Shown here: one piece after another, positions 13,889 to 60,915 of the stretch
How the letters are laid out: each line of letters opens with the position of its first letter
Position numbering within the stretch: the stretch's first letter is position 1
Assembly (NCBI RefSeq): GCF_016859285.1
Contig: NC_053412.1
Coordinates: 6,199,789 to 6,263,788 of the forward strand
Direction of reading: 5' to 3'
Source of the DNA: Xiphias gladius
Lineage: Eukaryota; Chordata; Actinopteri; Istiophoriformes; Xiphiidae
DNA: 64,000 bases
Notes under the pieces: generated by a model
Seen by the model: only the letters and a program-made list of their open reading frames with translations
Told to the model about the DNA's origin: nothing
The model's database searches: none
Translations under genes and position numbers: made by a program

Positions 13889-16800
13889 TTAAGACTCACC
13901 CTCATCATCAGAGTCGAACCCAAAGAGGTTCGAGCACTTCTGCAGTTGGAGATGACTCTGCAGATCCTCAGCACTGTTAAAAGTAGCGAAACAATTGGCA
14001 CATCGTTGTCTCTGTAGAGCTGCTGTAACACAGGCCTGCCCAGGAGGGGGACTGATCTGGTGCGACTGGAAAAGCGTCATCTCCTTCCTCCGTTTTGGCA
14101 TGGTGATGTACTTCTCATCAAGGTAAGCTGTAGGTGGCGGGCGCATGTATGGCCTCTTACTATACTTGGCAAGAGTGTCCTTACACACTGTGGATTTTAC
14201 ATCTTCACTTGCTGCTTGTCCGTTCATTACTACAGAATAACCGGGGCTGCTAATTGTAGATGGTGGTGTTTCTACTGAAGTCTTTCCCTCCTCACCTGCA
14301 GAGCTCTCCTCTACCTCTGCTTTCACCTCAGTAAGTGGTTGGACTTCGGCTTTTGACTTTGCAGGCTCCTCGGATACTGAGGGAAGACCCTGATCTTTAG
14401 ATTTTTTCTTGATAATCTTTGGGTCACCTTCTTTATGAATTTTCTTGTGCTTCTTACTTGCTTTGTTGGTATCAGTGTTTTTCGTATCATTAGATTTCTT
14501 TGATTTTTTCTCTGTCGTTACCCCCTGCGTGTTCTCTTCAGTGGCAGTGGGTGGAGAGTTCTTTTCATTCAAGCTGCTAGTAACAGCAGGCACGGAGGGA
14601 CCAGAGCGGTCAAGTGTTGCATCTGAGGCTTCTTCCTTTACTTGTCCCTCTTCATTAAGAGTGCTCATTACTGAGGCTGCAGCTGTTTTGGTCTCATCCT
14701 GTTGTTCGGCTACAGATTTTGACTTGGCAGTCATTTTCAAGGCAGATGTTTTGCCTGGGTCTTTGTATGGCCGTTTGTCCTTGACTGTCTTTTTGTCCTC
14801 ATTTTTATTAGTATCTTTGTATTTCTTATTTGCCTTGCCTGAGTCTGAAGAAGCTTTTTTAGTATTCTTTTCTTTATGTGTCTCCTTTTTCTTGATGTGT
14901 GATTTCTTTGACTTTTCATCTGTTGTTACCTTCTGTGTTTTCTCTCCTGATTTGGAGGGTGGTGTACTTGCCTCATTTAAACTGTTGGCTGTAACAGCAG
15001 GCACAGAGTTACCAGTGCTGTTTTGTGTTGAGTCTGTGTTTTCTGCCTTTGCTTTTCCATCCTCATCAGCAGAACGTTCTTCTACTACTACTGGTGCTAC
15101 TGCTGCTGCTGCTGGTGGTGCTGCTACTGCTGCTGCTGCTTTGTCTTCAACTTGTGGGACAACAGATATTGCCTTGGCAGGCTTTTTCAAGGCAGACTCT
15201 GGTTCTTTGAGAGGACATTTTTTCTTGACAGTCTTTGTGTTGACTATGCTATTTGTAACCTTGTGCTTCTTCGACTTGCTGGAGTCTGAAGCAGCAGTTT
15301 GGCTACCGTTTTCTTTAGGAGTGGAGCGCTTTTTTGCTTTGTGCACTTTCTTCATTTTGTCAGTGGTTAACTTCTGTGTTTTGTCAGCTGAGGTGGGGCA
15401 GATTAATTGATTTAAACCGTTATCGGATTCAAGAGCTGTAGACCTATCATGAGAGACACCTTTTTGTTTAACATGATTCTTCTTAATCTGCTTGTTCACT
15501 GATTTCTTAGACTTTGATTCATCGACTGATGTTTCTGTAGTTTTGACTACATCTTGGTCCTGCTTACTCTTTTCTTCTACTGTTAACCTGTTGCTCACAT
15601 TTGTGGTCTCTGCTGCTTTAGGTGGGCTTGCATGCTGAGTGGGACTCTTTGGATCCTTTTGCAGAGAAGTTTTTTCTTTGACAGTTTCATTGTTTTGACC
15701 AGTAGAAGTGTTTTCATCATGCACAGCTTTATTTGATTTAGGAGGACGACCTCTTCTTGTAGGACCCTTTGCCTTTACTTTGACCTGCTTTTTCTTTAAT
15801 TTATGCCTCAAGTTGCTACAGTGTTTTAACAATGATGATGAGATGACTTTGTGAGTTTTGGGAGCTGCCAAATTTGTTACTTGCCCTTTTCTTAATGTTT
15901 GCCTCAATCTCAGATTAGGAACAGTAGGCTGTGCGGAGGTGTCTTTGTTGGAGAGATTCTTTAAGACATTTGAATCCTTGGTCTCATTTCTGTCTTTCAA
16001 CTCCTGTTTCAATGCAGATGCTCTGACAGAGGAGAGAGGAGCTTTAACGTGTTTTCTTGATGACGAGTTATGTATTGCCTGTCCTCTTAATTTACGAGCA
16101 GCCTTTACAGTCACAGTCTTATTTACAGCAGTGGCAGCAGTAGCATATTTTGACTTATGATCCTGTTGTTTCTTTCCAACTGCTGAGTTATTATGTTTGT
16201 CACCTGTTTGCTCATTTGTGATCTTGTCTGGTTTAGTGGGTTTGGACGTAGCGTAGTGCTCTCTTTCATGAAGGTTTAGTGCCCAGAGACAAATAAATAG
16301 TTGAGAACAACCAGGGAGACAGCACACTGCCTGCAGTGGACTGTGCCTCCTGGCGTGCCGTCTCATTTCCATTCCGGTTTTGAACCTGGCAGTACAGCCC
16401 TGATGAAGGCAAGGATGCCGAGGAGTGATCCTGTGTCTTTCAACATGGTGTTGAAAGTGTTTGAAACTCCACAAAACCCTCATGCAAATAGTACATCTGC
16501 TGTTTCCGACACGGAATGCCAGTTCTAAAGGTTTGACCTCACCATAGTGATCTTCCAGAGCATGGTACAGGAGTGCAACACGGTTTTTTGACAAGTCTGT
16601 AAACCAAGCACATCCATCCACAGGACAGCAAACTTTCTCTTGAGTCTCCACATTTTTCTCTTCAACAGCTTTCCCATTTTCTTTTGTGGCTGCCTTCAGG
16701 ACCTGCAGAGATTCTGTCTCCTTCATTTTATCCTCAGTGGGACAACCAAACTCTTTCCCTACCTGAATTGAAGATGCAGAGGAATCCATCTCTATATCTT

Positions 16801-19800
16801 GGTTTTCTGGCAACTCGGGATTCCCAGATCCATTACTCGTTCTTTCTCGGGAGATCTCCTGTTGTGCAAGTGGCTGCTTGGCTTCCAAGTCCTTTTTTGC
16901 TGTGTCAAGTTCTTTCCGTTTGCCAATATGCCCATTTATCTTATGAAAAGGAGTTTCGCTGTTAAGGTGCTTTGATGTATTTTGTTTCTTTCCTTGTAAA
17001 AACTGACCATCCACCTGCTTGTCATTAGATCTTAACTTTCTGAATTCAGACGGGCTTGAATCTTGAAGGCTTTCTGATTTAGGACAAACAGCAGATTTCT
17101 TCGGTCTCCCACTACTACGACGACTAGAAGACGTATTTGTGGTCTTAGCTTTGGCAGAGGTTTTAGGTGTGGAATTATCTTTGGTCTCTGAGACCGGGTT
17201 TTCTTGGGCTTTGTTACTGACTGACTCTTTGCTCTTCTTTAGCTTCTCTATATGATCAGAAAGGTGCATCATGGCCAGAAGGTCATCTTTGAACATTGTC
17301 CCACAGAACATGCACTCGTCTCTACGATAATGGAACATTGCATGTGATACAACACGACTTCCCTTGAAGACCTTGTTGCAGAAGGTACAACAGTACTCCA
17401 ATTTTGATTCCTCTGATTCTGGTTGTGTTTCCATAGGCTCACTGTTCTCAGGTGTTTCTGGAGCAATATCCTGAGTTCCTTCTTTCCCTTTCTTCAGTTG
17501 CACATCAACAACCACAGAGGCCTCCCTATCTGGTTCAGAGCAGCTGGAGGCAGTCCATATTTTATGAGGTACTTCAGGTTTACTTCCAGCTGTGGACTCC
17601 TTGGAGGCACTGTTCTCTGGAGCTTGAGGTTTGTCATTCTCGAGATCTCGAGCAAGTGCCTCAGGAGAAAGTTCAGTAACCATCTCTGTTACTAATGTCA
17701 GAGCAGATATGTCATTTATACTGTCCAGGTCTGTAGGTAAACAAGTACCCGGAGTCTCTGATACCTTACTAAGAGTGACCATGTTTCCTCTGGGGCTTGT
17801 GTCTTTTTCACCAGATGCATGTCCTTTTGCATCTTTAGGTAAATCTTCTGCGACATCCACCTCAGCAATGCTGTTGCTGATTGTGGTGAGCACCTCTTGA
17901 GTGTCTGCTTTTGCTTCGGCTACAGGAATTTTGCCAGTGTCAGCCTGAGAGGTAAGTGACTGAAGTTCTTGTTCCCCATCTCTAAGAACATCATCTTGGG
18001 AATGAGAGGGCGTGGGATCTGCAGAGCCAATGTTTGAATTGTTGGCCCTATTGGAGACTAGAAGGATTCCATCAGTAACCATCTTCTGATTGTTGTCTGC
18101 AGTTGTGGTCTGTGAAACCTCATCTGAAGCTGTGGTTATTGAGAGGTCTTCTGCACTTTGAGCTTTACAGACCTTATCTAAACCTGGGGATTGTGACACT
18201 TTAGCTGCTGCTGGGGTCTGTGAGGCAATAGTGACTTTCATCTCAACAGCAGGCTCTTCACAGAGCTCTCTTGCTGAGGCTGTGGTTTGAGCTTGCAGGA
18301 CCTTATCTAACACTGGGGCCCCTGTCACTTCAACTGCTGCCAAAGTCTGTGAGGCAGTGGTAGCTTTCATTTCAGCAGCTGACTTTTCATGGAGCCCTCT
18401 TGCTGAAGTAATGGTTTGAAAGACTTTTCCTTTGCTTGGAGGTTGAGGGACCTTGTCTAAAACTAGGGATTCTGTCACTTTTACTGCTGCTTGTGTATGT
18501 GGAGCAACAGTAGCTTTCATCTCATCAGCAGACTTTTCAGAGAGCTCTCTTGCTGCAGATGTCTTTCGTAAGACTGCTTTAGTAGTTTGAGCTTGAAGGA
18601 CTTTTTCTTTGGATGCTGTAACTTCATCTGTTGTTGGTGTCTGAGAGGCAATTCCACCTTTCATCTCAGGCTTTTCACAGAATTCTCTTAGTGGATCTTT
18701 AGGAGGACTTCCCTGCACAGAAGAGCGTGTGATTGTTGATACTGAGCCGTGAACATTTGACCCATTACCCTTTCCTTTCTGCCGCCGAGCATAACAGTGC
18801 AACTGTTGCACAAACATTGGTGCATCCCGCGCTCTAAGAATAACCTCTTTGCGATGTACAGTCTTCATGGGTTGTGATATGGCAGGAAGCTTTACTGTAG
18901 GTTTGTAAAGAAGCACTTGAGGGAACCCTCTTTGTCTGTTGCAAGTGTCCTCAGTAAATGTACCCATCAGTTCATTGTCTGGCAAGGAGAGTTCAAGAAT
19001 TACTTGTGGAGGGGTGGTTGCTTTAAGACAATCCAAAGAAAATCCTCTCTGGTGCTTGTTGTTTTCCCTTGCCTTTAAATGAGAATTTACTGAAGGTTTG
19101 TGTTTAGCATTGTTCTTGATATGACCAGTTTCAGACCTCTTTACGACAGAAGATCGATGGTGCTTTTGATGTTTCAATTCGTGCTTTTTGATCTTCGGAG
19201 GAGCATTGTTCTCTTCAAGAGTTCCCGAGTCTTCCAGAAGCCACTTGGGTTTTCTAATCCTCCGTTTAGGTGGGTTCTTCTCTGAGAGTCTTGTGGTGCG
19301 TCTATGTTCTCCATACCCGATAGCAACATTGTCCTGTATTCTGTCTAGCTGCCAAAATGAACGCCTCAAACGTTCAGATGATGCTTCCTTCAAAGGTCGT
19401 GATCCTTGGGTGCCTTTCTTCTTTACAGCGTGATCAACATTTAGTCGCGTTTTACCTGGGCCCACCTTTAATTTTTTGGAAGCAGTGTCAGTATCCTCTT
19501 TATGATGCCGCTTCTTTGCTGCTGCCTGAAGTGCCCCTTTACTTCCTTTCTGACATAATGATGTGCTTGACCGGAAAGCGGGCTCTTTGGTGCAATAGTT
19601 AGGGATCCATTTGTCCTCCATGATTTCTTCAAGGGCAGCACTAACCACCTTCTCACTCATCAACTTCAAACAATTTGTCCGCAAAGCAATGAGGTTCCAA
19701 AACTCTGGGTCAAAATAGAGGTCTTTTTTCAAGACCTGAGGGGAGAGATAAAAGAAAACGTTTTGGTACAACAATATGGAAAAATGGCAAGCAACAGTGT

Positions 19801-22800
19801 CATGTACCAATTCTGTACTGCTCATCTGAACTGAGCTGAATTCCAAACTATGCCTTTTCTTTGTCATGATTTGTGATAAAGAAGCTCTACCTGCAGTGTT
19901 TCAAAGCGAACATGATTTCCGATGGGGCTGTATTCCACATGATACTCCTGATCAGGATGCATGTAAAGAAGGTACACCATCTTGTAGGCCTCAACAGTGC
20001 GTTCCAGGAAGAAGACAAGAAGAGCACATGCTCGGCAAACCTCCAAGTCATTGGGAAGCAGGCCGGCAATGGTTTTATAGATTAGGGACTTCGTCACAAC
20101 ATCACAGGGAAGGCAAGACTCCAGGGCATTAGCACAAAGCTCCACGCAGAATTGGATACCATCTTCACCCAGCTATGAAGTTACAAACAAAGGACTTTAT
20201 AAAATCCTAACATCTTAATAAATCTACTAAATTTTTTTTTTTTTTTTAAATATAATCCTGTAAATATTCACTGCATTTCAAATTTCTACCTCACCTCTTG
20301 CAGTATGGCTCTGATGAAAGGGAAGATTGAGTTAACATTGGTGGCAGACAGCATCAGCTGATGACTCTCCTCAAGTAGAGCTTGCTTTGATGTATTCAAC
20401 CGACTATGAAGTTTACTCCATATGAAGACAAGATCACTGCAAATAACATAATAAATAATTGTTCTTAATGTTGTATAACCTGGCAGCTATGATTTTTGTA
20501 GAAATTAGGAAGCCTTGAATAGGCTTCAGTTGATGTTATACACTGACTTCTTATTACATTAGCATCAAATTGAAGTTTATTTACCACAAATAGTACATGT
20601 CTCCCCTGCGGAGCTTCTGGGAGAGGATGGCTCTGCTGAGAGCTAGCAGCAAGTCATCCTTTTCCTCACACTCCAAACTACAGATGATGTGAACTGCATC
20701 TTTACCATTAAGGTCATCCACCTGAAAAAACAAAGGACAACTGAAGCATCAGTTTAGCCCAAAAGATAGTTCTCATACATAATACTGTGATCTAGTTGTG
20801 TGGTACCCAAGCAAAATTCAGACAGAAAAATTCTCACCACTTGAATGAAAGACATGCTACTCTACAATATACAGCAGTTATTTTACCCACCTCTTCATGT
20901 AGGCGGTCATGTTGTGAAGTTTTGTAAAGCCACGTGAGGTAGACCTGGAGGAAGAACAAGTGTTGTCCTGTTGTGGGATGCCGAGCACAACACTTTGCCA
21001 GGGCCATGGCCTCACTGACCCGCTCACGGGTTAAAAGGTAGCGCACCCGAAGCTCAAAGAACACTGGCAGCTCAGAGTTGATGCACCCATCCACTAAGGA
21101 AAGGCCAAGCCAGAGAGGAGGCAAATTAATGCTGCAAACATTTCAAGTAATTACAAGGAAAAGAGAGGGAACAAACTATTTTTAAGCAAACACCTCCAGA
21201 TATGCTCTGGTCTACATTAAAAATTTACTAGGAAATGCGTGCAGTAGAGTGCATACTTCCACAAAGTCCAGTGTCAAAGAACATACACTAGACTTCAGGG
21301 GAAAAAAACTCTAATTCAATATAAAAGTTCCAGATCTGCCCCAAAATTTAATGGGTTCTTCCCTGGCCCATGCCCTACCCGTCTACCAAGTTTGGTGAAA
21401 ATTGGTTCTGTATGTTTTGTTCTGGGGGAACAGGAGTTCAATTCGGCTACATAATGGAATCAAACTTTTGGTTTGAGAGTTTACAGTATGAGACATTAAA
21501 AAATAATATTACCTCAAGATTTTATATGAGAACTACATATTGTATGGAGAAGTATCTGGCACTATGCTAAACGAATTTCAACTCTTACTTTAAAATTATA
21601 GTTTAACATGGTAAATATATTACAATGTGATATAACAGCTAATAATAAATCGATTTAAATTACTAAGGCAAAGTGAAATTCACACACTGATGTATGTCAA
21701 CAACTGATTGAAATGGCTTGCATTTGCATGTGGCTGACGTTTCAGTGGTCAGAAAGTGAGAGATGAAAAGAGAAAAACGAATTTACTCTATTCCATCGTT
21801 ATACCAATAATGACATCAGTCTTGTGTATAATACAAATGTTGAATGTTACCTACCTTCATTCTGAGGTAAACTGGACTCACTGAGGATTGCCTGTAAGAC
21901 CGAGCTGGCCCAAAGCCCGCCGCCCTGAACCAAACGCTCCACCTGAAGTAAGTGAACATTCTGATGCCTTGCAAGGGCCAATTGACATTCCTGGAGAAGG
22001 GACAAGGGACCAAAAAAAAAAAGAAAAGAAAAAAAAAAGTGACTTATAATGCTAGTACCAGTATCTTAACAAATATTTTCTGCCACAACAATGCCCTAAA
22101 CGGTTATCTGTCCAGAGAGGTATAGCACACAATGAAGAATTGTAAAATTAAGTCTTAAAGTTTCTAATCTTTGATTCAATTGCACTTCCTACTTACCTGG
22201 AATGTAACAGTGAAGTGTTTCAGTGGCTCCTGATGGAAGTCTCTCTGGTCAAAGAACAGCAGCAACTCAAAAACACTCCTGTGAGGAAATCAAAAATTGT
22301 TGGTAATCCTACTTAATACCTATGATCTGTTAGCCAAATTCACAGAAATTCAGTTGGTTATATGGATCCAAAGACACTGACTGTGATAAAGAGGTAGTGG
22401 AAAGCTGTTAATTGGGAAACTGAGGGAAACCATGGGGGACAGAGGATGGAGGACAGAGAGTTTATGGATGAAGCAGGGTATACAGCTGGCAGCATGCCAG
22501 GGATTTTCCTGGCTCACAAATGTGCTTGTGTGAGCTAGCGAACACAATCAACTTTCGGTTCCATAAAAGTTGCCACCAAAGTATAGAAAATACTAGAGCC
22601 CAGCCCAGCCCAGAATATACGAGACCACTTCAGAGGTGGTGGACAAATATATAAAAACAAAGGTTTTATTTAATATATATGTGGGAATAATCCTGTTTTC
22701 TGTTTGCAATTGGTTTAAAAGGTTTTTTTCTCTGTGTGTGACGACGTTAGCAAGTATTATTTTATTATACCTGTTTATTTTATAAAAATTGTGTATATAG

Positions 22801-28453: not shown

Positions 28454-35229
<6,776 letters not shown>

Positions 35230-46500: not shown

Positions 46501-48667
46501 CTGTAAACTGGCCTTCCGCATTTTTCCACTTGTACACAGAAGATCATTCTTCTTCAAAATAACAACCCTCACCCATCTATGGGTTTGGGACAATATGAGT
46601 AGAACACTGTGTGTAAACATCACCTGCTTAATATTAAAAAAAGAAAAACTTTTGAAAAAGTATCTCATACACGTGAACACATTTGACTCTTGGTTCTAAA
46701 GTCTAACAAAACAGGTTACGCCTGAGAGATGACATAGCTGATATATTAAATTAATAATTAATTTAATTTTTTTTAACAGCAATTTAATAATAATTTACCT
46801 TACACATTTTCCCCCTTTAGATTAATAAAAATAGACCTTTACAAATAGATCAGCTTCATAGGTGAGTGCCTATGAAGTGAGCCCCTTTAAATGTGCTGTA
46901 TAAAAAATGAATTATTATCATAAGCTATAGAGTGGTCAGACAACATCCACTGGTTGAATCAGCTGCACGACTTGCGTGCCTTGATGAGTGGGAGGACAAA
47001 ATATTTCATTAACAGTGATATGTCAATCTAGCAGAATAAAGCCATTATTTATTGGATAAAAACTTTGTTGGGATCCTCACCTGGCTGAAGGTTGGTTTGT
47101 TGTGCAATCTCGAGCAGCGGTCTCCATGTCTGCAAGCTCCAATTTTAAAATAGAAGGAACAATTGACCCTGGAAAAGAAGGAAAAGTGTCATCACACTCA
47201 TAGTTTGCCTTTACTTCAATGGAACTGGTAAAGGACAAGGCTGATAACATATTTTTTTTTTTGTAATTACACAAAAAGACAAAATCCAATAAAACCATAC
47301 ATGGGACTCCAGTGCTCATGTTACTCCCATGTTCATTGTGACGAGTGAACATGTCACGCAGTCCAGCAGTGTGACTGTTTTTAACGTATTTTCAATAGTT
47401 TGTGGACAAGAACTGAGTTCTACGGCAAAGAGAAATGACCTATATCAGATTTCGACAACACGGGCAACACTTATAATTAGGATCAGCTGGTGGTTTCGGT
47501 TATTTCATGGGATTTGTTGGCTGTATGTGTGTCAAAAGAAACCCTACAGCCAGACCAATCCTTCTAAACAACCAGACCTACAGTAGAAGGTCATAGGACC
47601 ACTTAAATGGGTATGGGAGCTTTATTGATATATCATTCTCACAGTACTAAACTAGGTATATTGTTTGGAAGTTATATTACCACAATGAGTGTGTTTACAT
47701 GTGCACGAGTACCCTGGTTAGGATTAGGCTTTTGAAGTATCCTGGTAATGTGCTGCACATTTAAACATCTCCTCCCGATTTAAGAAACCTGGATGAAACC
47801 TGAATCGGGTGCCTTGATAAGTTCATCTATCAAGGCACCCGATTCAGGTTTCATTATTTGTTGGTACAGAACGTAGTGGCTGAGATGTTGAGAAACCCGG
47901 GGTTACGCCTGGCATGTAGACGTACTTATTTATTTTATCACATCCTTTTCTTGGTTTTAAACCTCTGACCAAGCAATACATTTATTTTTGTCCACTTAAC
48001 TGAATGAATGCAATGAACATTACACGGCTCTGCTTGGCTATTTTGACCACTGCTTTGTTTTAAACTATCTCGGAGACCACCAGGTAGCCATACTCCAAAT
48101 AATCGTCACATTATTGTGATAAACGCACGACAAACATATCGCGACAATTGTCTGTTTCAACCGCAAACAGTTTCTTAGCCTCAAATGTGTAGAAAGCATT
48201 TTGCTGCACTCCACCGGCAAAAAGGAACAAAACAACCCGCCTGAACAAGACAACTACTCTGCTAACAACCGCATTTATTGACCAGGGCATGCGTTACCTG
48301 GCTGTTTAATAACCAACAAAGTATGCTTCCGGTGTTTATGCGTGTACCTGAAACCTAGTGAACATTTTGTAAAATAAAACGTGTTGGCGCAAACCAAAAG
48401 CACACAGTAGCTGCTGGTTAGCTAAGGTGTCTTCGTGAGTTTCATTCAATGCGTTAGCTGACCGTTAGCTTCCTCTTGCTAATTTAAGCTTTACTGAGAC
48501 ATTCAGCGGCGCTGCGTCTACAAACTGAGAGCCGCCGGCGATGGAGAAGAACCGCTGCAAACACAGTTCGCATACAACTAATCGTTTGGGGGACTATAAC
48601 AATAATTATTAAATAAAACTTACTTGTCTTTCTCTGTGCCGAAAATGGACGCCAGGTACTCCGCCAT
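40584..48667 (-). CDS. u2af1: U2 small nuclear RNA auxiliary factor 1 (U2AF35), complete
   Basis: Small subunit of the nuclear U2AF heterodimer, which recognises the 3' splice-site AG during spliceosome assembly. Coding exons in transcript order: 48667-48624, 47168-47081, 46280-46214, 43816-43767, 43062-42964, 42659-42526, 40892-40800, 40692-40584. Total 684 bases, 227 residues, in frame. The order is: N-terminus [15 protein letters not shown], first CCCH zinc finger ([20 protein letters not shown]), U2AF-homology RRM ([16 protein letters not shown] to [12 protein letters not shown]), second CCCH finger ([17 protein letters not shown]), and an Arg/Ser tail ending RERSGRF. The serine and glutamine equivalent to human S34 and Q157 are present. 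Human is 240 residues; the difference is the missing glycine run in the tail. The last intron is only 107 bases. cbs adjacency matches human 21q22.3. Confidence 0.97.
43153..43184. repeat. Perfect 14-bp hairpin in u2af1 intron
   Basis: Arms 43153-43166 and 43171-43184 are exact reverse complements with a TTAG loop. Confidence 0.95.
45927..45960. repeat. 15-bp hairpin with one mismatch in u2af1 intron
   Basis: Arms 45927-45941 and 45946-45960 pair except for one A/A mismatch; the loop is AGGA. Confidence 0.9.
47690..47935. mobile_element. Putative MITE-like element with a perfect 27-bp central hairpin
   Basis: The core is a perfect inverted repeat, 47793-47819 against 47828-47854, with an 8-base loop. 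About 95 bases outward on the left is GTGTTTACATG, and about 65 bases outward on the right is CATGTAGACGTAC. These match each other in inverse orientation over about ten bases, as degenerate terminal repeats would. No coding capacity is present. It lies in the first intron of u2af1. Element limits and class are inferred. Confidence 0.5.
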
Positions 48668-50656: not shown

Positions 50657-53615
50657 ATGAGGCCTAACCACTGCTGGAACGTCCTGCATGTGCCCATGTT
50701 GGCAGCACTGGTTCTCACCTTAAACGCTGACAGTAAGTTATTTTTTGCGTATTTTGCTATCTCAGTATTTGTGTGGTGCTACCTGCAGATCTTTGATGTG
50801 TTAAATCAGGCCTTCGGACTAAAAAGTCAGCTCATTTTATGTTGTCGGGAGAGCTGCAAAGCCACTATCCAATTTCTGTGGTTAAGGGTTGGAGGGATGA
50901 TTTCTGTAAGGGTCCTGAAGTTTAAAGTGCTGTGTACAAGTCCACACTGGATTCGGATTTTTAAAAGGACAGAATCCGCGTACATTTACATCCCAAAAAC
51001 CACCATCGGCTCACCAACAGCTATCGAAGTAGGTTGATTGTGAGTGGACCATGATTCTGCCTTAAGCATATAACATAAGCGTTTCAGCTGAAAAAAGTGC
51101 TTCTTGCGGAGGGTGTTTTTCATGAGTGTGGGAGCTTGATGGAAACCATAAGAGATTTAGTTTCTCACATTATGAAGCAGAAAATATATCTCTGAAAGCA
51201 AGGCAGAGAAAAACATTTTTTTCCTAGAACTTACTCATTAGCTTCATGAATCATCTACCCAATCCATGTGATTTTGAAGTGTTGATTTAGACAACAGAGG
51301 TTGAAATTCATCCTTTTGCAATAAGAAGTACTACTGTGATTTCTTCTTTTAATAAGCAGTGCTGACTATGAGTGAATGACTTTATTCACAGCCACACTTT
51401 CATTCATGTATGTCCACATTTGATCATAATGAATTTTACAGCTAGACTGAATGATTAAGTGCTCCTATACGGGCGGAGAACATTCTCCCACTTATAACAA
51501 AAATAACCTATTTAAAAAGCCATTGGTTTAAACATAAGTGCATCATCTCAAATCTGAGAACAGAGCTGTGTCTTTTCAGTCATGTAAAGGTGACACTTTG
51601 CACTTACGTGTTTTTTACAGGACAGTGGCAAGCCCCATTGTTTTGGATATATACGGTAGATGTTTAAATTTCCACCTCTTCAGATCATGTGACATGTCCG
51701 AAAGCTCCAGAACAGCTACTAAATGGACCTTGTAGGGGGACTGTTTTGTCAACTGCTGTTTCCAAGGTCAATAATGAAGTCATGCACAAGCTTTATGGTT
51801 AAACTGAGATATGTGGCTTTAAAGTTCCCCCATGAGACATTCTGCTTTAGGTGGGGTTCACTCTGACTTCCTTCAACAGTCGCTGGATTTGTGAATTGTA
51901 TTCAAACTCATCACAAAAATGAATATGCTTTCATTTTTTACTGTAGTTACTCATGCATCATGTTTACTTGTCTTTTTCCCTTGTATTATTGCATATGATG
52001 GTACTTCTTTCCGGTGTGACTTTCACAGTCTTACCAAGACAGTATTGTTAATGGATATCAAATATGTGTATAGTGGCCTCTAACTAATATAACAACTCCC
52101 ATCGACCAATCTTTGTAGAAGACACTTTGTCATAAGATATAATGTTGTTGGTATAAAGAAGGCTTTATTGGACTCAAATTCAACTGTTTCATAGTATCAT
52201 GCAAAGATAGATTCATTTTATCATTTGTAATCTGCATGTATTGTCATTTTCCTTTTGCAGGCAAAGACTCGGACTGTTTCGTAGAAATTAGAGTACGCCG
52301 CAAAACGGTTTATGAAGCTTTGGCTGGAGCAGACCTTAGGATTAACTGCACAGTCGCTTTCTGCAACAATTCATCACCAGCAGTGTCCTGGTATAAAGTT
52401 GAGGAAATTTCTGTCCCTGTCAATGTCAACGGTCTCAGTCACGTTAAAACGGAGTGGAAAGAGTTAAGCCGTTCAGAAGGGATATCGTATTTGATTTTCC
52501 AGGAAATACGCAGCAGCGACTCAGGTCTGTATCAGTGTTGGAGTGGAAACGGTGTGAGTCATAGCATCAATGTCTCTGTCCATGGTGAGTGCGACTTTTT
52601 CAGTAATTTATACATGTACTGTATATCGGACTTGACTCTCAAAGGAAGCCTGTGTTTATAGTTGAAGCTGATCTTACCACCGTGGCATGGACGGATGACA
52701 CATGTAAGAAAAGTTTATTTATAGCGTTTTGCAGTGATACTGCTATTCCACCTCCTTTCCATGCCTTAACATTCGTCTGAATCCTAAAACATTTTTTATT
52801 CTTTCAAACACTGTAGCCTCTATAACTTAGGTTTAAATACAGTACATAAACGCACATTCATGTTGAGTCAAACTTCTTTTCTTTTCTTGCAGATGCCACA
52901 ACTTCTAATCCTGAAACCCCACAAAATCTATGGATATACGTGTACTCTGCTGCCGGGATTGTGGCGTTCGTCATCATGGTGATAGTAACATCTGTCATGT
53001 CAGTGCGAGGGTGTAAAAGTGAGATGCTCAAATTTCTTTATTAATTTAATCCTGTATTCCAAGATAAAATGACAAGTATTTGAATAATTATGCCATGTAG
53101 TGCATATTAATGAGACTGAAAACAATAACTAATTTAACCAAAATGTCCATCATGCAGGGAAATCAAAGAGAGAGACAGACACTGAAAATCAGGTAAGATA
53201 AGAATGTAGTTCAAACTTATATCCTCTTTATCCCATTTTATTCCTTCAAACAGTTTAATGCAATATACTTTGTTGGTGTGTACAGTACATGGCAATCCCC
53301 ATGTTTGAGCAACCCTTCCCACACGCCAGCCTCCAGCCCTCGCCAAGAGAGAGCCCCTCTGCCCCGCCACCTCGGAGATCTACCCGGAGAAAGGCACCGG
53401 CCCCACGTCCCAATGAGTCGACGTTGCCGAGAGATAGTGAGCATGTTTACGACAGGACTAAAAAGGACAGGGACAGACAGAGGAATGGGATGGAGGAGGA
53501 AGGGAGTTCCGTTGTGTATGCTGCACTCAACCATCAGATGCCGCCGGGGGCTGCTGTTCGGCCGCCGAGGCCACGGGAGGAGTTTTCAGAGTACGCGGCT
53601 ATTTGTGTCTCTTAA
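50657..53615 (+). CDS. btla: B- and T-lymphocyte attenuator (BTLA)-like receptor, complete
   Basis: Single-pass immune inhibitory receptor. Exons: 50657-50732 (leader), 52261-52584 (Ig), 52893-53018 (stalk and membrane), 53158-53192, 53286-53615; 891 bases, 296 residues. Residues 1-25 are a signal peptide (MLAALVLTLNAD). The Ig domain at about 27-133 keeps the four cysteines expected in BTLA: SDC, INC, AFC and YQC, corresponding to human C34-C63 and C58-C115. The transmembrane segment is about 147-169. The tail has three tyrosine motifs in the human BTLA order: HVYDRT (Tyr242, the Grb2-site position), SVVYAALNH (Tyr265, ITIM; human IVYASLNH) and FSEYAAICVS (Tyr290; human TEYASICVRS). In mammals BTLA binds HVEM and recruits SHP phosphatases; that role is inferred here. 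An optional in-frame mini-exon (52662-52703) would add 14 residues. Identity rests on the tail and cysteine pattern. Confidence 0.85.
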
Positions 53616-55947
53616 AGACCCAACACCCACTTGACTGAATCACTTCAAAGCGGAGGAAATCTCACATTATGCAGAGTAATTCTTTCAAATTTTTTTTTTT
53701 TTCTTGAGGCTGATATAACCGCTCACACTAGAGGACCACTGGCGAACATGTCAAACTGGAACTTTCCAGAGGAGCTTAGGATGTAAACGGCTCTGGGAGG
53801 AAGGCAATTTAAAGAGGATACAATGACCCTCTCACAGCAACGACTGCTGATACAGAAAACACCTCCTGGACTGGGTCTTTTTTTTTTTTTCCTCCTGCAT
53901 TTTTGTAAAAACTGCTCTTTTATCACAAAATTAGCATGCTACAGCACAGACCGGTCCACCCAGTCTACTTGAGAGACTGAACGTGACATACTCTGCATTG
54001 AGGAAAGCCCAGTCTGTGCACAGCTATACAATCCAGAGAAAGAGGCGTGATAAGTGAAAACGCCCGTGTAGGTGTAACATGGGTGTGTAGGGCTTTTAAC
54101 ATTCATAACTATGCAGTTAGCAAGAATGTGATAAATAATATCCTTCCTACAAAGAAGCTGACTAGCCAGAATATGTTTTGTTGAATTGCTAACATGCTAT
54201 TGTCAGTTTTCCCTATTCAGTGACCTTTCATGCTAATAATTTTGGACAAGGTAAATAGTTTACAACACTTGTTAGCATGTACTTAGCAACAGCTTGAAGA
54301 CAAAAGACGACGAGGTACTTAAATAGCTAGTAAGATTGCCTGATTAACACCGTAAAACTGTAGTAACCTTCTTTGTTTTGCTTGCTTTACCTGGAAGGGT
54401 TGGTGCGAGATTTTTGGTCATTTCAGGTTGTGAGCTGCCAAATTGCAGGCGCGTCATCGACCCTCACTTCGATATGTAAATCGAGAGCATTTAGAGGTTA
54501 AAGGATGAGGTTAGTGATATTCGACATATTTCTTAATGTCAATAAATCCCATGACAAGACTGAAACCAACAACAAATTGACCCCACTAACAAGTATTGTC
54601 TTTGAAGCCAAAGCCTGATATATTTTATTCCTCTGTGCCATAGAGCTCCATTGTCCAAAAAGTATTAAAAACACATAAATTGGCCAGTGACATGTTCCTT
54701 TATTACGATGAACAGGGCCAATTTAATTTAAAGTCAATTTCAACTGCTGACTAGAGCAAAAAATGAGTATTAATCCGCTACTGAAAATAGCCCCCAACCA
54801 TCTCGTTCTTTACACCTGTTTGAGTAACATTTGCTAAAACCTACAATACCCACTTTCCACCAGGAGATTACATTTTATAAAAATGAAAGCAAACTTTGTA
54901 ACCTTGTGCCCCATTTTTAAAGAGTTGAATCTAGGTCTTTTCTGTGATAGGAGCCAGTTGGCTTGGGGCTGAACGTCACAAACAGGGTGAAAAGTCAGCA
55001 AGTGTTGAAAGATGGACTACTTTCTGTTGGATTTTGTTTTTTTGTTTTTTTATTGGATTTGTTGACAATGAACATATAATAATATGTATAATACATATAA
55101 TATTGATAGTAATATTTTTTAAAAAAAAACAGAGTTACACCAGCCTTATCCTCTAAGATACAAGAGAAAAAGGAATAAATCAGGCTACAAATCCTTCAGA
55201 ATCTGTAGATTGACCGCATGGGAAAGGCCAAAAGCTGCACTATGTCTTACCAAACTGGATGTATTTAACCAGAAATGTTCTAACCTTTTCTACAACTAGT
55301 GTGGTTTTCTTTGTGATCTTGGTTTGAATGATTTGTGTCATGTACTCACTGTACATCAAAACTGTGACTTGTGCTGTTGCACATCCCTGAATTGAATTTA
55401 CTCTTCTGAGTATCATCGCATCTGAAAACAGTAATGGTTTCATTAGCTTACAACCTGTAACATATCAACCATTCATACATTTTCTGACTATTTGAATGAC
55501 TAATGAGCTTTTATAATTTTGTGTTCCACAAACCTTTAGGATTACCAATTGTGATTCTTTAACTGGGAAACTGAGAATGTAATAATTACCTGATCGTTTT
55601 GTGCAATCAAATAACATAATGTGTATCCATAATTGGTCGATATGAATTCAGATTATATGATGCCATCACTGCTGACACACTTATGTACCTTGTTTGTTTT
55701 TTGTAAAACAATTTATGCTAAGGAAGAAGGGATGTTTACTTGTTACCAAAGGTTGAAAAAAAGATGTGTGCTGCAAATGTCCTGAGCGTATTAGCCTTCC
55801 TAGCGTTAACTGTAATAGACATGCACCAAGGACCACCGAAAAAACAGGAAGTAAAGTCAACCACCAGTCATTTACTGTCATATGTCGAGCAAATCTGTAT
55901 AAGGAGTTTAAAGGGGGTGGGTAGCTGGTTCTTTCAGTGTTTCTACC
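53616..55947. other. BTLA 3' UTR and spacer to the second copy
   Basis: No exon found. AATAAA hexamers near 54540 and 55174 are candidate polyadenylation signals for the first copy. Poly(T) runs and AT-rich sequence fill the rest. Confidence 0.45.
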
Positions 55948-58261
55948 ATGAGACCTAATTACTACCTGACAATCCTTTATGTCTCTGTCTTTGTGGTACC
56001 TGTCTTCATTTTTGAAGCTTATAGTAAGTTATTGTTTACTATTTCTAGATCGCTCACTCAGTCCGAGCAGCTCTTTGTTACGGCCTTTGTTTCTCTGACG
56101 CAAAGTAATGTGTTCACAAATATGAAACTGAATTTTTTAAATTATGTTCAAGGCTATGAAGACTGAAAAAGTTACAATATTGCAATATTAAACTTGACAA
56201 AGAAATAAAACCCGTGATAAGAGTCAACTAAATTCCTATTAAGGAAAACATTAAATTAATATACCATTTATATAATAATGTTATTACTGTACAGCCTTAC
56301 TCTGTGAAAAAAAACTAAAAAAGACCCAAAGACGGTTTAACACAAATGGCTGTTAAACTGATAAAATGTGAATTTGTAAAAAGGGTCTGTGATGCTGTAA
56401 TACACATTTTAGTTCATTGTTTGCACCTCTGGAGGATCTTTATAGAGTACGTGTCGGCTGGGATGAAATGGAGCATTTCTGATATTTCCCCATATACTTT
56501 CCCCCCTTCCTTTTACTGATAAAAAAATTTTAACAATACATTGAAGAAGAATGAAATTAGTTTTGACACACAAAAAAAAGGATGACTAAATGTAATTTCG
56601 TTTGGATTATAAGGCAAACCCTGATCCCAGCCTAAACGCTACCATTCAGTGATACAAACCTTGACATACTATATTTAATTAGAAGAATTCATTACAGGCA
56701 GCTCACAACCTGAGAGGCTCAGCCCAGGGTAGAAAATTGCCTTATCCACAAAGATGTCAAAGATGATTTCCAATCCTGCAAAAGCTGATCTGAATTTTCA
56801 GTTTGATAGCCTAAGATCCAACTTTTTCTGTGATCTAATTCATTTCAGTATCATTGCTACAAGTTGATTTTTTTTTTTTTTTTTTTTTAAACTTTCATAT
56901 TCTGTAATCATCAGCTGGTATCAAATTTGCGATCTAGGATGAGGACGAATATACCAGCAATTTTAATATTAGGTTTTGTCATTTTCCTTTTGCAGGCAAA
57001 GACTCGGACTGTTTCGTAGAAATTAGAGTACGCCGCAAAACGGTTTATGAAGCTTTGGCTGGAGCAGACCTTAGGATTAACTGCACAGTCGCTTTCTGCA
57101 ACAATTCATCACCAGCAGTGTCCTGGTATAAAGTTGAGGAAATTTCTCTCCCTGATCTGTATCAGCGTGGAAGCGGAAACGGTGTGAGTCACACCATGAA
57201 TGTCTCTGTTCATGGTGAGTGTGACTTTCTGGACAATAGGACTCTATCCATACTAGGATACAGGAAACTATTTATAACTGCTACTGAATGAAGGATGAAT
57301 TACCATTTTTCTGGCTAATAAGCACTCGGCAATATCGAGCCCACCACAGTTATGTGGATGACTTTGGAACCAGGTAAGAACTTAATTCAGTCTCTGACAG
57401 TGGTGTTGCTGTCCCACCTGCATTGTATGGCCGATGCAGCACACGTGTCACATGAATCCTAAAACACTTTTCTGCATGAATTAAGTTTACATACATCACT
57501 GCTTCTCTGATACCGAGTCAAATGTCCTCTTCTCTCTTGAAGGGGACCAAACGGCTCAGGACACTTTCTGGCAATATGTGTACCGTGTCGTTGGAGTCAT
57601 GGGGTTCGTCGTCATAGTGATAGCTACATGTGTTACACCAAAGCGAAGGTGTAAAGGTGAGACACTCTGGATTTCTTTCCCTACGGTAACTGTTTGATTC
57701 CTCAGGGTCAGTCAGCACCGCACTCTGCAGGCCTCCAGTTGAAAGGATCAGGTCCCACCTGACAAATAAAATATTGAAAAACAGGTTAAAAATGCAAAAA
57801 AAAAAAAAAAAAACCACAACAAGAATAAATATGTAAATGAATAATATGTAATATGTAAATCTCACCTGGACTTTGTGCTTTTGGATTCCTATAAATCAGG
57901 CTGTAATAATACAGAAGTGAAATTTCTTACATGAGAAACTGCTATTGTTTAATCTAACAAGACTGTGCGTCAGTGCGTGTCCTCTATGTAACACATTTAC
58001 AGGTAAATACTTTTGTTTCCTGTAAAGGGATCAATCTTTGTGCACACATCCTGTACAAGTACCTCTTTTAAATGTGATTGCTTGTCTATATTGGTGTGTG
58101 TGTGTGTGTTTGCATATCTGTTCTTTCTGCTCTCTGGTGATGATGACCAAAGTAGCTTTTCTTCTTTGGGTACAGTGTCTGATGTGCGTTCGCGAGCAGA
58201 TAGACTGACGATCGACGAACAGGAAGCAGAATTAAACCACGCGTCACATAACCATATGTGA
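55948..58261 (+). CDS. BTLA-like tandem paralogue with truncated Ig domain, possibly decaying
   Basis: Second copy with the same exon plan: leader 55948-56023 (76 bases, the same length as in the upstream gene, MRPNYYLTILYVSVFV), Ig exon 56996-57214, membrane exon 57543-57656 (FWQYVYRVVGVMGFVVIVIA) and a possible last exon 58176-58261. Joined, these are open for 164 residues. The Ig exon is 105 bases shorter than in the upstream gene, an in-frame loss of 35 codons between strands C and F. The canonical second Ig cysteine is arginine (LYQRGSGNG for LYQCWSGNG). The proposed tail (VSDVRSRADRLTIDEQ) has no tyrosine and thus no ITIM; it is supported only by phase and an acceptor. This could be a recently broken gene, a decoy receptor, or a copy whose true tail I missed. 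The open frame and intact splice sites argue against an old pseudogene. Confidence 0.5.
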
Positions 58262-58624
58262 AAACAAAGGGATGTAGGTTGTTTTACTGTGGGAGATATA
58301 AATCAGATACATACCAAACTACTCATTATCAGTCTCAAGTTCAGATTTCACCCGGCTGCCGAGGGAAAGATGTGTCACTCAAAAAACCCCATCGTATTTT
58401 CAAATGTCATTTTTTTGGAGTATGAACGCCGACGCTGTACTGAGCTAAAAGCTAGCACGTCTTTGTTTAGCCTGTTAGGATACCAACGAGAACTACCACT
58501 GAAGGTGATGGGAATGCCGTTAGTTCTGCAGGTGTTTGGTCAAAAACAAAAGTATCGGACGAACTAAAATTTTGACCTGAAGAGAAGTTACGGGATAACT
58601 TTTCCTGTAACGCTATCCATACAA

Positions 58625-58770
58625 TAATATCCACCTCATGGTGGCGCTAGTGGAAAATTCGAGGGATCTCCGAAAGTCATTAGGATTCATTATCTGAGAA
58701 CCATGGATGTCTGTACAAAATTTTTTACCAACAGCAACGACACTGCCTACCCATGCTTTTAGCATGGCTA
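58625..58770 (+). repeat. Teleost dispersed repeat
   Basis: The run from CTCATGGTGGCGCTAGTGGA through AAGTCATTAGGATTCATTAT to ATGGATGTCTGTACAAAATT follows a very common fish repeat. Its distal end has diverged. Confidence 0.55.
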
Positions 58771-59715
58771 GAAAAACTGTACCTTATTTTCAAATGTAAA
58801 CCTTTGGTCGGAGTTGAGGGAAAAAAAAGCTAAATAAGCTAAAGTCACATTTAATGTTTACAGTGGAATATGATGGGTATCAGTGGATAAATAACAACCA
58901 GCAACAACAACAAGAAGTTGAATTTCTAATATTGGCAGATGTGCAGACATACACATTGGATTGTGCGTTGACTTTTGTACACATCGTATGGCAATTACGG
59001 TGCACTTAATTCAGTAACATGCATCCATTCACACACTGAGCTCGATTAGTTCACTGTGTAAACCACCTCACCCTTTCCTGCTTTTGCAGGTTGATGAGGT
59101 AATAAATTACTGTAAATCCCAACACGACGTCTGCCTCATTTCAATATGAGTCACCTTTAACCTGCAGGTATTGAAGCACATGTTTGGAGCTGACATACGG
59201 AGGGGAAATCTTTCTCACTGTTCTCTTTTAGCTCATCGGTAAGGAATTGACACCTTTCAGTTCGGACAGAAACCATCAATCTCAATAAAAAACAGAAGCA
59301 AAAATTTCCACTGGATCCTGAAATTTGACTCTAAAGGTCACAAAATATAAAATGTCTGCAACACATACCACCTCAAAAGACTGAGCTTTGGACACATTTT
59401 CATTCACAAATGCATATATTTGTGGCAAGATCGCAGCAACCACATTGATCTCTCTGATAACTTTTGTTGTAGATTGTGTCAAAGATAGTTTTCAGCTGTA
59501 AACAAGCTACAACAGGTGACAGATTGCAAAAACACAATTGAGAACTGATCTGATTGGAGAGTGGGGGAGCGATAGGAGGAGACTGTATGAAGCACGTGAA
59601 GAAGCGTAGCCTGAGGGATGTGCTACCTCTGTGGTTTTAAAAGTGCTAAAGGCTGACGTACATCGCTGCACTGCCTGCACACTATCTGGTGCGGGCACTC
59701 TCTCTCTCTCTCTTT

Positions 59716-59717
<2 letters not shown>

Positions 59718-59780
<63 letters not shown>
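59718..59780. repeat. (CA)n microsatellite
   Basis: About 31 uninterrupted CA units, preceded by a (TC)n run at 59698-59716. Confidence 0.95.
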
Positions 59781-59782
<2 letters not shown>

Positions 59783-60915
59783 TTGATAAACACCCCACCC
59801 AACATGCTGCATTGCCCACCAAACACCATTGTACGCATGTAAGTAGAGACACATGGCCCCTTTAGGGGTCATAAACAAGGAATTTCAAAATTCAGTATCC
59901 TGAACTTTAAAGGCAACTGGCCAATTGATATTTTATCTTGGTAACACAGTTGTTGACAGATCGACAAAACCCTTGAAATAAATGAAAACAAAGGTGTGGA
60001 AATACTGAAATTATTATTTCCTATGAGTGTGACTCCAAAAGTCTTTAAAAGCCAAAAAGGGAAGAAAAACAAAAACGCACTAGTGATTTCATTGTTAGTT
60101 CACTCAGTGTCAGCAGTTTCAGCCAGATAAGCCTCTATATTAATAATAATAATAGTCAAATTATCTTCTTTAATGACATCAATGTCCCTGATAACAATCA
60201 AAAAATTCTGTCACTCAGATGCCAGTCAGCGCCTCTAAGTAGCAAAGGAAATGCCTACTCTTTCCTGTCTTTGTGAGGCTTGTGGAAACTGAAAAAAAAA
60301 TAAATCATTATTTATTGTACATGACAGGTATTTGGATAGAACAATGGTCCAAGTCAGAATGAAAGGTCCATTTCCCAAACAGGATGAACCCAGTTTGGAA
60401 TAAAGGTCTCGAAATGGGTCAATTTCTCAGTTACCATTGTCAGCCTAACACTTTAAAAGCAATTTCATCCTGTAGTCTTATGATAGATAACTTTCTCTGT
60501 AAAAAAAAAAAAAAAAACCTGAAATGACACGTGTCAAACTGGATGTAAATTAATTTGAGGCTATTTTAAGCTTTAGATATTTACAATGGTTAGTCAGAGA
60601 TCATTTAAAAAAAAAAAAAGGCATGAAGATCCAATTTTGCCACTCGCAGTGTCTAAAAAAAAAAAAAAAGAAAAGTCACTGGAGTGGGCTGTGGAGGAAA
60701 TGATTTTCCTATTGTGTAACTTTCTGTTGAGGTTACCCTACCACCCACAGTCTCCATACATCATAACCCAACATAACCCAGAGTTCAGTTACAAATTTTA
60801 AGTTTTTTTTGTTTGTTTGTTTTTTTTTTTACAAAAAAACATCTCATATTCTTCCTCATAATCCCAAAAATACAGAGGACAGAAATAAGCAGTGAAACAA
60901 AAGCAGATAAAGTCT

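Follow-up and report, generated by a model that had tools for sequence, protein, structure and literature searches.

Gene A and copy B at the BTLA locus

The window analyzed here is a 64-kb stretch of DNA (C13:6199789-6263788) with zero N, taken from a contig of 14,985,604 bases in a 690.8-Mb assembly of 1298 contigs. The size of the assembly and its gene content would suit a teleost. The window carries a tandem pair of BTLA-like genes on the plus strand, designated gene A and copy B. Elsewhere in the window, a PDGF/VEGF domain exon was found at 123-662 (Pfam PF00341, E 7.8e-17), and an Rlf-like zinc finger gene was found on the minus strand at 13892-20172, with TPR_Rlf matches in two frames, including an open frame of 2003 codons. 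PALP exons (pyridoxal-phosphate enzyme; E 1.4e-9) with a weak CBS domain match below cutoff (E 0.0082) were located on the minus strand at 31448-33555 and probably belong to a cystathionine beta-synthase gene, as named from these domains. An inverted pair of ~135 nt and 70% identity, formed by 54540-54674 (between A and B) and 47386-47519 (upstream of A), is perhaps an old mobile-element remnant.

Exon models of gene A and copy B were built on splice-site consensus and phase and are predictions from genomic sequence rather than from transcripts. Gene A has the make-up of a complete BTLA gene, with exons for the signal peptide, the Ig domain, the membrane segment and the ITIM/ITSM tail; its six predicted exons have GT-AG splice sites and matching phases and yield an open 310-residue protein. 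Exon 1 (50657-50732) encodes the signal peptide (MRPNHCWNV...) in a frame open from the ATG to a GTAAGT donor in phase 1. Exon 2 (52261-52584, 324 nt) encodes a complete BTLA Ig domain. The short, membrane-proximal exon 3 (52662-52703) was predicted from splice sites and phase (1-1), the transmembrane exon 4 (52893-53018) from a hydrophobic segment, AAGIVAFVIMVIVTSVMSV, and splice sites, and the cytoplasmic exon 5 (53158-53192) from splice sites and phase. Exon 6 (53286-53615) encodes the cytoplasmic tail, in which the ITIM VVYAAL is followed by the ITSM-like SEYAAI at the C-terminus (...SEYAAICVS). Binding of an HVEM-like ligand is a feature of BTLA. An ITIM/ITSM pair is described for BTLA in PMC12151841. 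The single Ig domain of gene A lies nearest to BTLA by PDB sequence matches, the five best of which were all BTLA (1xau_A, E 2.2e-9; 2aw2_A, E 6.7e-7); the best Pfam Ig models scored just below their cutoffs (Ig_3, 28.6 vs 30 bits).

Copy B is located 4.7 kb downstream of gene A. Its exon 1 (55948-56023) encodes a signal peptide (MRPNYYLTI...), ends in a GTAAGT donor and matches the gene A leader at 45/76 bases, as expected from the original prediction of strongly diverged leaders. Exon 2 (56996-57214) is an Ig exon shortened to 219 nt, and a possible short exon 3 (57350-57373) was placed weakly, by splice sites and phase. The transmembrane exon (57543-57656; VYRVVGVMGFVVIVIATCV) was assigned by hydropathy, carries an Arg at the segment's outer edge and matches gene A in 76/112 columns of a gapped alignment, which favors identity. 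A possible last exon (58176-58261; VSDVRSRADRLTIDEQEAELNHASHNHM, stop) was placed speculatively by acceptor, phase and stop codon; it encodes no tyrosine and no ITIM and is perhaps an eroded or unrelated exon. Together the predicted exons of copy B form an open 172-residue frame.

The shortening of the copy B Ig exon is a loss of 105 nt (35 codons) in frame, visible as two matching pieces that lie 105 nt farther apart in gene A. The lost 35 residues follow the VSWYK stretch and end directly before LYQC, a region whose motifs we take to be the C and F strands of a V-set domain. In copy B the LYQC motif reads LYQR (YQC to YQR), so that the F-strand Cys is replaced by Arg. The Pfam Ig_3 score was 14.2 bits (E 0.065, cutoff 30), and with 35 codons missing, the Cys replaced and the score low, copy B does not encode a complete Ig domain. 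No ITIM/ITSM tail was found in a plausible frame on the plus strand of 57657-60500, predicted tail included; three motif matches there all lay in open frames of 11-37 residues. Judged by its sequence, copy B is most likely a receptor in decay or a truncated one.

Searches with both proteins by tblastn recovered A and B as the BTLA exons of the window, and all other matches had E values of 0.16 or worse. Against the whole assembly, the Ig protein gave three matches at E <= 1, namely A, B and a third BTLA-like gene on C16 (L005:1423-1890; match G000:C16:17119556-17119876) with 35% protein identity over the Ig domain (E 1.4e-5). Frames neighboring the C16 match contained, by eye, a membrane-like segment and the ITIM-like motifs AVYAEI and PEYATH (L005:2581-3018). 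The Ig domain of this gene also lacks the F-strand Cys (DDGLYRWDL); loss of that Cys alone is therefore no proof that copy B is dead. The original prediction had placed the copy pair correctly and recognized its identity; it had missed the 105-nt deletion, the change of YQC to YQR, the ITIM-less tail of copy B and the third gene elsewhere.

The identical tract and the divergence around it

Direct comparison of 52241-52412 in gene A with 56976-57147 in copy B (both plus strand) gave 172/172 identical bases and a mismatch at the next base on each side. The tract takes in the final 20 bases of intron 1, AG acceptor included, together with 152 bases at the 5' end of the Ig exon; its position, composition and length had been called from the letters of the window, and all of these held without extension by a single base. 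With two mismatches allowed, the match extended to 52238-52419 and 56973-57154 (182 nt, 98.9%). It is followed by a second matching piece, 52526-52598 and 57156-57228, identical at 64/73 bases and made up of 59 exon and 14 intron bases. Both tract edges lie in homologous register between gene A and copy B, and the copy B deletion begins about 7 bases past the 3' edge of the exact tract, a placement ambiguous by ~1 base.

The 172-mer was searched against the whole assembly and gave two candidates, both of which were scored and reported as matches at E <= 0.001 inside the window; no third copy of the tract was reported at this threshold. A 901-bp query over copy B gave ten matches, consisting of B itself, the two pieces of A and seven short stretches (about 30-44 bases) overlapping the poly-T region of copy B. 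Match counts in the assembly are lower bounds for repeats. Among the matches reported for the 901-bp query, none was an alternative version of copy B elsewhere.

Immediately outside the tract, the introns had been said not to align closely. Introns were examined by scoring the real A/B pair against 100 shuffles and counting the shuffles with an equal or higher score. For the whole of intron 1, 66/100 shuffles were as good or better. The first 150 bases of intron 1 were equaled by 1/100 shuffles, the matching part being the donor end (about 22 bases), and the last 150 bases by 26/100. Intron 2 was equaled by 1/100 shuffles with its first 14 bases included and by 7/100 without them; intron 3 (0/100) is still alignable, and the counts were 63/100 for intron 4 and 28/100 for the 300 bases upstream of the start codon. 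Thus intron 3 and certain exon borders retain old homology, which is absent beside the 5' edge of the tract. In its 3' part, the Ig exon had been said to differ at many positions; it does so mainly through the 105-nt in-frame deletion, and the remaining piece matches at the 64/73 bases given above. This 3' piece (88%) is closer between the copies than the leader and transmembrane exons are, which may reflect constraint or an older conversion of the whole exon.

Codon sites were compared between the tract and the other coding pieces. Third positions differed at 0/50 codons in the tract and at 29/71 outside it (leader, 15/25; 3' Ig, 5/19; last 27 transmembrane codons, 9/27), and fourfold sites differed at 0/23 in the tract and 6/19 outside (leader, 3/5; 3' Ig, 1/7; transmembrane, 2/7). 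At the lowest divergence seen outside the tract (9/73, 3' Ig piece), the probability of 172 identical bases is ~1.5e-10 with sites assumed independent, and the 95% upper limit on divergence within the tract is 1.7%. A permutation, which treats sites as independent and exchangeable, was run over 414 aligned columns with 67 differences, drawn from the leader (76), the 182-nt match, the 73-nt piece and the last 83 transmembrane columns; the short exon 3, the gapped start of the transmembrane exon and other intron sequence were left out. A run of 172 was reached in 0/20000 permutations, the longest being 69. Given the run length and the codon-site comparisons, chance is untenable as the cause of the tract.

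Probable gene conversion and rival explanations

Recent ectopic gene conversion within an old tandem BTLA pair is the best explanation of these data, and we hold it to be probable. This reading rests on flanks that diverged long ago, on a sharply bounded identical patch lying in homologous register, and on the retention of splice site and frame; local identity in the tract lies far above that of the paralogous flanks. BTLA would have been duplicated in tandem long ago, after which gene A would have stayed an intact inhibitory receptor gene while copy B diverged and was left without a recognizable ITIM tail. More recently, a patch of ~172-180 bp, running from the end of intron 1 through the acceptor and the 5' half of the Ig exon, would have been copied between the genes by synthesis from the paralogous template in the course of break repair. 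The 105-nt deletion of copy B could belong to the same repair event or be separate from it. Lying beside the 3' edge, it hints at end joining as the step that closed a repair patch. The deletion may also be independent of conversion, because base 57148 differs from A and the next bases, CCCTG, match, as would be the case in the older sequence of B. Against conversion stand the shortness of the tract and the absence of similarity upstream in intron 1; guiding homology on the 5' side, if any, would thus be confined to the exon border. The C16 paralogue, at 35% protein identity, is too diverged to polarize the conversion.

The original prediction had paired an old duplication and a recent conversion, which fit the data and remain the best reading, with an assembly chimera as the alternative, which has become less likely. 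An assembly or consensus artefact would have replaced the 5' Ig exon of B with A sequence through assembly, polishing or a chimeric read. Such an origin would suit a tract that is short (172 nt), perfectly identical and abutted by an abrupt truncation of the copy B exon; on the other side, the edges are in homologous register with acceptor and frame kept, the window is free of N within a 15-Mb contig, the tract had its two reported matches with no alternative copy B among those reported for the 901-bp query, and consensus errors should rarely overwrite sequence diverged by 10% or more. We regard an artefact as unlikely. Improbable, in our judgment, is a transfer by template switching or a small duplicative insertion, in which a 172-bp piece of A was moved into B and the 105-nt loss was part of the same event. 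The nearness of the 3' edge to the deletion point (about 7 bases) and the missing intron homology just 5' of the tract are what such a transfer would leave, yet exact register with splice site and frame needs guidance by homology, at which point the process is hardly distinct from conversion, and inspection of the tract edges by eye revealed no target-site duplication.

It is scarcely credible that divergence is uniformly old and that extreme purifying selection acted on this portion of the exon. The Ig domain segment encoded by the tract does align well with PDB BTLA chains; selection of this kind would nevertheless have to account for differences at 0/50 third positions and 0/20 intron bases next to 9/73 in the 3' piece of the same exon, for constraint on a copy B domain whose truncation makes constraint doubtful, and for a C16 BTLA-like gene whose protein shares just 35% identity across this domain. 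Judged by run length and codon sites, selection is untenable as the cause of the tract.

A further possibility concerns the role of copy B, namely that it is an expressed, ITIM-less partner of BTLA, with A and B forming an inhibitory and activating (or decoy) pair in which conversion maintains the N-terminal ectodomain of B. We consider this improbable. In such a pair, the Arg of copy B could recruit an activating adaptor, and the shortened Ig domain could still work without its canonical disulfide. Decay of copy B is likelier than an activating role because its Ig domain is truncated. In fish NITRs, activating receptors are described as lacking an ITIM and carrying a positive residue inside the transmembrane segment (PMC2442602). 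Copy B resembles these loosely: no ITIM was found, and an Arg is present, though at the outer edge of the segment.

Comparison with known systems and implications

In primates, PMC5701461 describes conversion between SIGLEC11 and SIGLEC16 that homogenizes the V-set exon region and leaves the 3' region more diverged; the core with the V-set exon (~2 kb) is 97-99% identical in all five primates compared, and the more 3' region is 87.6-93.4% identical. SIGLEC16 is often non-functional in humans and carries a large deletion in baboon (PMC5701461). The BTLA pair is alike in comprising duplicated Ig receptor genes, one inhibitory, with a stretch at the Ig exon probably homogenized by conversion, a more diverged 3' region and a partner that is probably decaying or truncated. 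It differs in that the BTLA tract is 172 bp in one genome, as against the ~2-kb SIGLEC core, and in that SIGLEC16 is an activating partner, whereas the Ig exon of copy B is truncated. Among 164 duplicated teleost genes, interlocus conversion is estimated to account for a median of 7-8% of post-duplication codon substitutions (PMC10503786); the process is the same, but the keywords of that work name the teleost genome duplication, whereas BTLA A and B are a tandem pair. In the titles and abstract openings of the five papers found to name BTLA and gene conversion together, no such event was evident.

Multiple BTLA genes have reportedly been described in jawed vertebrates by Bernard et al. in 2007, to go by the title of that work, and the present genome is alike in having more than one BTLA-like gene, two of them (A and B) on C13 and another on C16. 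What is new here is one further instance of a known process. The case is small and clean: two immune-receptor paralogues share a conversion patch, and a deletion lies beside its edge. A phylogeny inferred from this Ig exon would place the BTLA duplication at the wrong date. Should copy B prove to be expressed, paired BTLA receptors would be suggested for fish; if it is not expressed, the locus would be an ordinary example of concerted evolution linking a gene with its failing copy.
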